From assembly GCA_902586695.1 (NCBI GenBank), contig CACIIL010000007.1, positions 1 to 48,030 on the forward strand: a stretch of DNA of 48,030 nucleotides, in the 5' to 3' direction. Below the pieces are notes generated by a model that was given only the letters and a program-made list of their open reading frames with translations, was not told the origin of the DNA and ran no database searches. The DNA comes from an uncultured Alphaproteobacteria bacterium (GTDB lineage: Bacteria > Pseudomonadota > Alphaproteobacteria > HIMB59 > GCA-002718135). Position numbers and translations under genes: made by a program. Every line of letters begins with the position of its first letter. Positions within the stretch are counted from its first letter, which is position 1. This document shows, piece after piece, positions 44,972-46,175 of the stretch.

Positions 44972-45511
44972 TTGGCAGTAAATTTCAGAGCAAAGAAGAA
45001 TACTGGTCCAAGGACTAATGAGCAAATCACTGCTAGTGAAGTGCGCGTTATATCTAGTACTGGTAAACAATTAGGCATTATTAGTATTAGAGAAGCATTA
45101 AATCATGCCGAAGATGAGGGTTTTGATTTGGTTGAAGTATCTCCAGACGCAAACCCACCAGTTTGCAAAATAATAGATTACGGTAAATTAAAATATAGAG
45201 AGCAAAAAAGTAAAAAAGAGGCAAAAAAGAAGCAAAAAACAATTGAAGTTAAAGAAATTAAAATGCGTCCAGGCATAGATACTCACGATTATAATGTAAA
45301 GGTTAAGGCTCTTTCTAAATTTATCAATGGTGGTAATAAAGTTAAGGTTTCTATGCGTTTTCGTGGAAGAGAAATGGAGCATCAAAATCTTGGATTTGAT
45401 TTGCTTAAAAAATTAATAGAGGAAGTTGTAGAATACGCAAAGGTAGAAGTACCTCCTAAATCTGAAGGCAAGCAAATTATGATGATTTTAGTTCCTCAAG
45501 TAGCTAAATAA
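44972..45511 (+). CDS. infC: Translation initiation factor IF-3 (non-ATG start: TTG 44972 or ATA 44966)
   Basis: GPRTNEQITASEVRVISSTGKQLGIISIREAL, DLVEVSPDANPPVCKIIDYGKLKY, KVKVSMRFRGREMEH. Confidence 0.97.
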   Translation: MAVNFRAKKNTGPRTNEQITASEVRVISSTGKQLGIISIREALNHAEDEGFDLVEVSPDANPPVCKIIDYGKLKYREQKSKKEAKKKQKTIEVKEIKMRPGIDTHDYNVKVKALSKFINGGNKVKVSMRFRGREMEHQNLGFDLLKKLIEEVVEYAKVEVPPKSEGKQIMMILVPQVAK

Positions 45512-45562
45512 ATACTTATCATTGATTCTAAGAAAAATATCTTTATAAGCCCATCTAAACTA

Positions 45563-45587
45563 GCTATGGCCTGCGGGGCAGCCTAGC
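45563..45587 (+). promoter_or_regulatory. GC-rich stem-loop in the infC-rpmI spacer (candidate ribosomal-protein leader structure)
   Basis: GCTA-t-GGC-c-TGC-ggg-GCA-GCC-TAGC: ten base pairs with two single-nt bulges and a GGG loop; no downstream U-tract. Confidence 0.6.
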
Positions 45588-45611
45588 AGTAAATTTAACA
45601 AGGAGTTTAGA

Positions 45612-45812
45612 ATGCCCAAGCTTAAAACGAAAAGCAGTTTAAAAAAACGTTTCTCTAGAACTGGAACTGGAAAGATTAAGTTCAAGCTTGCTGGAAAAAG
45701 ACACGGCATGAGCAAAAGGTCTAATAAATTTATTCGTAGTACAAAAAAATCTGCAATAATGTCGCCAGGTGATGCAGCGCTTATTGATCATATGCTACCA
45801 TACAATAAATAG
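45612..45812 (+). CDS. rpmI: 50S ribosomal protein L35
   Basis: [48 protein letters not shown]. Confidence 0.98.
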
Positions 45813-45821
45813 GAGTTTACA

Positions 45822-46175
45822 ATGGCAAGAGTTTCACGAGGGGTTACAGCAAGAGCAAGACATAAAAAAGTAATAAAAAAAGCCAAAGGTTATTACGGTA
45901 GAAGAAAAAATGTATTTAGAGTGGCTGTACAAGCAGTAGAAAGAGGCATGCAATACGCATACCGTGATCGTAGAAAAAGAAAAAGTGATTTTAGAGGTTT
46001 ATGGATTCAGAGGATTAATGCAGGTGTAAGATTACACGGTATGACTTATTCTCAATTTATTTCTGGGCTAAAAAAATCATCAGTAGAAATTGATAGAAAA
46101 ATTCTAGCAGAATTGGCAGTTAATCAACCAGAAGCTTTTAAAGCTTTGGTGGAAAAAGCTCAATCAGCTAACTAG
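45822..46175 (+). CDS. rplT: 50S ribosomal protein L20
   Basis: [68 protein letters not shown]. Confidence 0.99.

Follow-up and report, generated by a model that had tools for sequence, protein, structure and literature searches.

The spacer between infC and rpmI in the window (the whole 48,030-nucleotide stretch of DNA analysed here) carries a hairpin that, judged by comparison of sequences, appears to be a variant form of an RNA element present in most of the sampled alphaproteobacterial families. Across the class, this element shows covariation both in its stem and between its loop and the start codon region of rpmI. It is quite probably a near class-wide translational leader, previously uncatalogued, in which one pseudoknot strand is the rpmI start codon together with codon 2, fixing synonymous codon choice in L35. 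In the window, the hairpin is probably the 5' part of such a leader, an H-type pseudoknot acting in cis on the rpmI-rplT mRNA, in which the start codon would be locked and the fold would be stabilised by L20. The genes around the element are arranged as infC-rpmI-rplT-pheS, and the relevant features are as follows.

44972-45511, + strand: infC (IF3), with a probable TTG start
45522-45549, + strand: promoter-like pair TTGATT - 16 nt - TATAAG, the pattern being kept in the genus
45563-45587, + strand: hairpin GCTATGGCCTGCGGGGCAGCCTAGC, between the infC stop (45511) and the rpmI ATG (45612), 24 nt before the ATG
45563-45566/45584-45587 (GCUA/UAGC) and 45568-45570/45581-45583 (GGC/GCC), + strand: predicted pseudoknot stem S1 with U45567 bulged; homologues with a covarying outer stem occur class-wide
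45571-45575, + strand: loop L1, CUGCG, whose UGC can alternatively pair with GCA at 45578-45580 in the free hairpin
45576-45580, + strand: 5' strand of S2, GGGCA, invariant in 69 of 69 same-genus loci; its predicted partner is the rpmI start region, a pairing proposed from class-wide covariation
45600-45605, + strand: Shine-Dalgarno sequence AAGGAG, within loop L3 of the proposed pseudoknot
45612-45812, + strand: rpmI (L35)
45613-45617, + strand: 3' strand of S2, UGCCC, from the start codon and codon 2 of rpmI
45822-46175, + strand: rplT (L20)

Conservation in the genus and across Alphaproteobacteria

The window has a GC content of 28%. A sequence-only reading had described a GC-rich bulged hairpin before rpmI that lacks a U-tract, and its position, its 24-nt distance, the missing U-tract and its exact fold were all confirmed. 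No terminator-like site was found at 45380-45830, and a terminator or attenuator reading was dropped. Folding energy was also discarded as evidence, being about that of shuffled sequence (z of -0.08 for the 31-nt hairpin and +0.96 for the whole spacer). The hairpin alone is no more stable than shuffles; the case is made by conservation. The window contains a further 8-bp complementarity between UCUAAACU (45554-45561, upstream of the hairpin) and AGUUUAGA (45604-45611, between the Shine-Dalgarno sequence and the ATG), but this pairing is not conserved across the genus (-3.69 kcal/mol for own flanks versus -3.74 kcal/mol for swapped ones).

A search of 151 genomes gave an rpmI match in 69 genomes of the same genus, including the window's own, and the hairpin is present and nearly invariant at all 69 loci. 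Among the 31 distinct segments, 99.4% of cells pair, and compensatory changes convert the second pair of the outer stem from UA to CG in five distinct sequences and the fourth pair from AU to GC in one. The block GGGCAGCC never changes. The inner UGC/GCA helix changes solely on its 5' side while GGGCA on its 3' side stays invariant, suggesting that GGGCA owes its constancy not to this helix but to something else. Codon 2 of rpmI is CCC at all genus loci, though CCC accounts for 5.3% of the proline codons in the AT-rich window.

In a sister family (f2) and other Alphaproteobacteria, the same place is occupied by an outer stem that encloses GGC, a variable loop, GGGYAU and GCC. The GGC/GCC pairs are invariant across the class, and GGGYAU has the variants GGGCU, NGGCAU and GGGCA. 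GGGYATGCC followed by an L35-like start was matched in 94 of 289 class genomes, compared with a handful for the reversed control, and the outer stems of 94 distinct leaders score 12.4 with their own arms versus 8.0 ± 0.37 with arms swapped between species. An unbiased census of 104 alphaproteobacterial rpmI upstream regions, one genome per family, found the core in 79 families as against 7.4 ± 2.6 in shuffles, family counts that ignore phylogeny. Its outer stems score 11.9 with own arms and 7.8 ± 0.39 with swapped arms; choosing the best-stem match per sequence biases the own-arm score slightly, and the gap is far larger. Pair counts in two sub-alignments likewise give a covariation score above all shuffles. 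The compensatory changes across relatives that the sequence-only reading had set as a check are thus found in the genus, with stem covariation class-wide.

The core forms in the census are GGGCAUGCC (42), GGCAUGCC (11), GGGCUGCC (9), GGGUAUGCC (4), several GGCAUUGCC and two copies of the genus block noted above. These two are the window and family f74 (L266), whose leader reads GCAUUUUC-CG-GGC-UAUAAACA-GGGCA-GCC-U-GAAAAUGC. The window copy escapes two covariance models (R1 and R2) whose training left out this genus; both models are GC-rich and specific, and they also miss most low-GC relatives. The window copy fits the descriptor GGC - loop - GGGYAU-like - GCC with GGGCA, as does f74. Since the models miss it, its assignment to the element relies on its position, its core sequence and this intermediate family.

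About a quarter of the sampled families have an rpmI without the core (for example L320, L325, L331, L350 and L109), and in these families the element may have been lost or a different structure may serve instead. Outside Alphaproteobacteria, none of the matches listed for the strict pattern GGGCATGCC looks by eye like a start region. One metagenome-assembled genome, L180, is labelled Candidatus Marinimicrobia, but its rpmI leader is of the alphaproteobacterial type and closely resembles the one in L218 (labelled Caenispirillum); this is perhaps a binning or naming error.

Proposed pairing between the loop and the rpmI start

The common loop sequence GGGCAU complements AUGCCC, the start of rpmI, at every base. 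Across families, the loop's first base and the wobble base of codon 2 are G-C in 58 cases, A-T, C-G and T-A in four each, and mismatched or wobble in seven. Watson-Crick combinations thus account for 70 of 77 cases versus 47 ± 2.3 after permutation, the maximum in 20,000 permutations being 57. When loops with or without G are tabulated against codons that are CCC or not, the counts are 58/2/1/16 (Fisher p 1.8e-13, a value that ignores phylogeny), and 12 of the 16 cases with neither loop G nor CCC are Watson-Crick (p 0.0008). A separate search for codons other than CCC, partly overlapping the family census, yielded ten confirmed L35 starts, of which five are Watson-Crick, one is G-U and four are mismatched; none has a G loop. 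The loop complements AUGCCN at the start of rpmI, and there is covariation between its first base and the wobble position of codon 2; the loop and the initiation codon are therefore predicted to form an H-type pseudoknot.

The geometry agrees with such a fold. The loop directly adjoins GCC in most members, and the connector upstream of it can be as short as 1 nt. In H-type pseudoknots without an L2 loop, the S2 strand directly adjoins stem 1, as GGGCAU adjoins GCC here. In the window, S2 (GGGCA/UGCCC) would have 5 bp, with -7.5 kcal/mol as an isolated duplex, and would compete with the 3-bp UGC/GCA inner helix. Neither loop nor codon 2 ever varies inside the genus, so the pseudoknot of the window is assigned by homology.

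Stem 1 would consist of the outer stem and the invariant GGC/GCC, and the stretch adjoining GCC on its 5' side (GGGCAU in most members, GGGCA in the window) would pair with the rpmI start. The initiation codon would be locked by this pairing, and the Shine-Dalgarno sequence would be left free in the long connecting third loop. When L20 is in excess of free 23S rRNA, it may bind and stabilise the pseudoknot, and translation of rpmI and of the coupled rplT would then stop. The element probably serves the cell as a switch to limit production of L35 and L20. As in other autogenous ribosomal protein leaders, it lies in an untranslated region before ribosomal protein genes that include a primary rRNA binder, and it has a conserved structure with covariation. 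The sequence-only reading had offered the hairpin as a possible L20/L35 operator; the covarying class-wide leader before rpmI-rplT supports the operator part and is best read as a ribosomal protein operator, possibly an uncharacterised one, with L20 as the presumed ligand. That reading lacked the loop/start-codon pairing, which supplies a specific translational mechanism, and the promoter-like sequence upstream.

Two other accounts of the conserved sequence were rejected on sequence variants. The window contains the short reading frame AUG GCC UGC GGG GCA GCC UAG (MACGAA), which stays open in most members of the genus. However, two members have ACG for AUG, one has lost the stop (CAA), and some changes are non-synonymous; at the class level the core is kept as a structure, and the GGGCU forms occur without any AUG, which makes it highly improbable that the frame is what is conserved. 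Recognition of GGCATGCC as a DNA palindrome by a transcription factor has a negligible chance of being right. In many members the sequence does equal its reverse complement, but the palindrome is broken in the window, f2, GGGCT and GGCATT forms. The flanking arms, moreover, show covariation as RNA, and the loop varies together with a coding position.

Candidate regulators and known L20 systems

In E. coli, bL20 represses translation of rpmI-rplT through a pseudoknot in competition with the ribosome, and in B. subtilis L20 controls this operon by attenuation (PMC10931766). L20 is the likeliest ligand in our analysis because bL20 represses through a pseudoknot in this very operon in E. coli. It is conceivable, although doubtful, that the same pseudoknot answers instead to L35, to another factor or to no ligand at all, in which case the fold would by itself keep initiation at a low rate. 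The invariant GGGYAU would be accounted for by start-codon pairing alone, making a protein unnecessary. However, the class-invariant GGC/GCC exceeds what simple pairing needs, and L20 controls the operon in both of these bacteria.

The resemblance of stem 1 to the rRNA bears on the same choice. Helix 40 of 23S rRNA, where we take the L20 site to lie, reads CAGCU-AA-GGU / ACC-GA-AGCUG in E. coli and CAGUU-AA-GGC / GCC-GA-AACUG in the genus; the leader stem set beside the latter reads GUU-AU-GGC / GCC-U-AAC. The comparison with the 23S site, proposed by the sequence-only reading, has a mixed outcome. The two consecutive G-C pairs of the 23S-mimicking L20 motif are present as the invariant GGC/GCC. 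In the window, the 5' bulge region contains AU and the hairpin lacks an unpaired AA; some relatives have CAA or GAA. Correlated change between leader stem and helix 40, which would have been strong support for rRNA mimicry, was not seen across clades, GUU in the rRNA standing beside a GCU leader. Because the rRNA is unchanged where the leader stem becomes GCU and the AA dimer is missing, this partial likeness is suggestive only, and it leaves some room for a regulator other than L20. The L20 site of 23S (L263 versus L260) carries GGU/ACC in E. coli and f2 but GGC/GCC in the genus.

At gathering thresholds, neither the window nor 18 related loci matched any Rfam family, and a permissive scan of the window region also gave no match, RF00558 included; the hairpin therefore has no existing match to another class in the scans made, a check that the sequence-only reading had named. 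The element shares with the E. coli operator its genes and would also share a pseudoknot in the message, control at the translational level and an internal promoter for the ribosomal protein genes (PMC10931766). However, the E. coli system has a long-range pseudoknot, a second site in an irregular hairpin and a promoter inside infC (PMC10931766), whereas the alphaproteobacterial structure, as examined in the spacer, is local, covering no more than about 60 nt in the window, and would have the start codon and codon 2 as its S2 strand. A pseudoknot before rpmI is thus common to both, supported by covariation in the homologues and by complementarity in the window, and its long-range form is confined to E. 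coli in this comparison. The Firmicutes L20 leader (RF00558) belongs to the same operon and would have the same ligand if L20 is right, but it precedes infC and acts by transcription attenuation (PMC10931766). In contrast, the present element lies between infC and rpmI, with no terminator at 45380-45830 and no Rfam match. A predicted L20 leader candidate of Deltaproteobacteria has two consecutive G-C pairs and an AA dimer matching rRNA, the latter being a hallmark of L20 leaders (PMC7247131). The G-C pairs are common to both, whereas AA is not required here and the main feature is the pairing with the start codon. The E. coli rpsO (S15) operator also folds its initiation region into a pseudoknot, which traps or excludes the ribosome on binding of the ribosomal protein; the gene, protein, sequence and taxon differ.

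E. coli and B. subtilis have both been shown to use L20 autocontrol, through unrelated RNA structures. If our reading is correct, the large class Alphaproteobacteria uses yet another solution, a compact one without an Rfam match in the scans made. A coding position, codon 2 of L35, would be under selection for RNA pairing, and the leader could be tested by single synonymous mutations. The complementarity of the loop to the rpmI start and its covariation with the wobble position of codon 2 are new among the open-licence literature; subscription journals may differ.

The promoter-like sequence and the start of infC

A TTG-containing hexamer followed after 16 or 17 nt by TATAAR ends 12-13 nt 5' of the hairpin in 69 of 69 same-genus loci. 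A generic promoter scan omits the TTGATT/TATAAG pair of the window because it accepts only second hexamers that end in T. The conserved promoter-like sequence suggests that rpmI-rplT also has its own transcript starting a few nucleotides before the hairpin, which would place the hairpin near a 5' end. It could then protect or process the mRNA from this internal promoter without translational control. This is very unlikely, since it leaves unexplained the invariant GGC...GGGYAU-GCC core and the covariation with codon 2.

The upstream gene shows a peculiarity of its own. The conserved N-terminus of infC lacks an ATG, and TTG is the likely start in the window and in the relatives displayed, with no obvious Shine-Dalgarno sequence. 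This start is reminiscent of the rare-codon start through which IF3 controls itself in E. coli.
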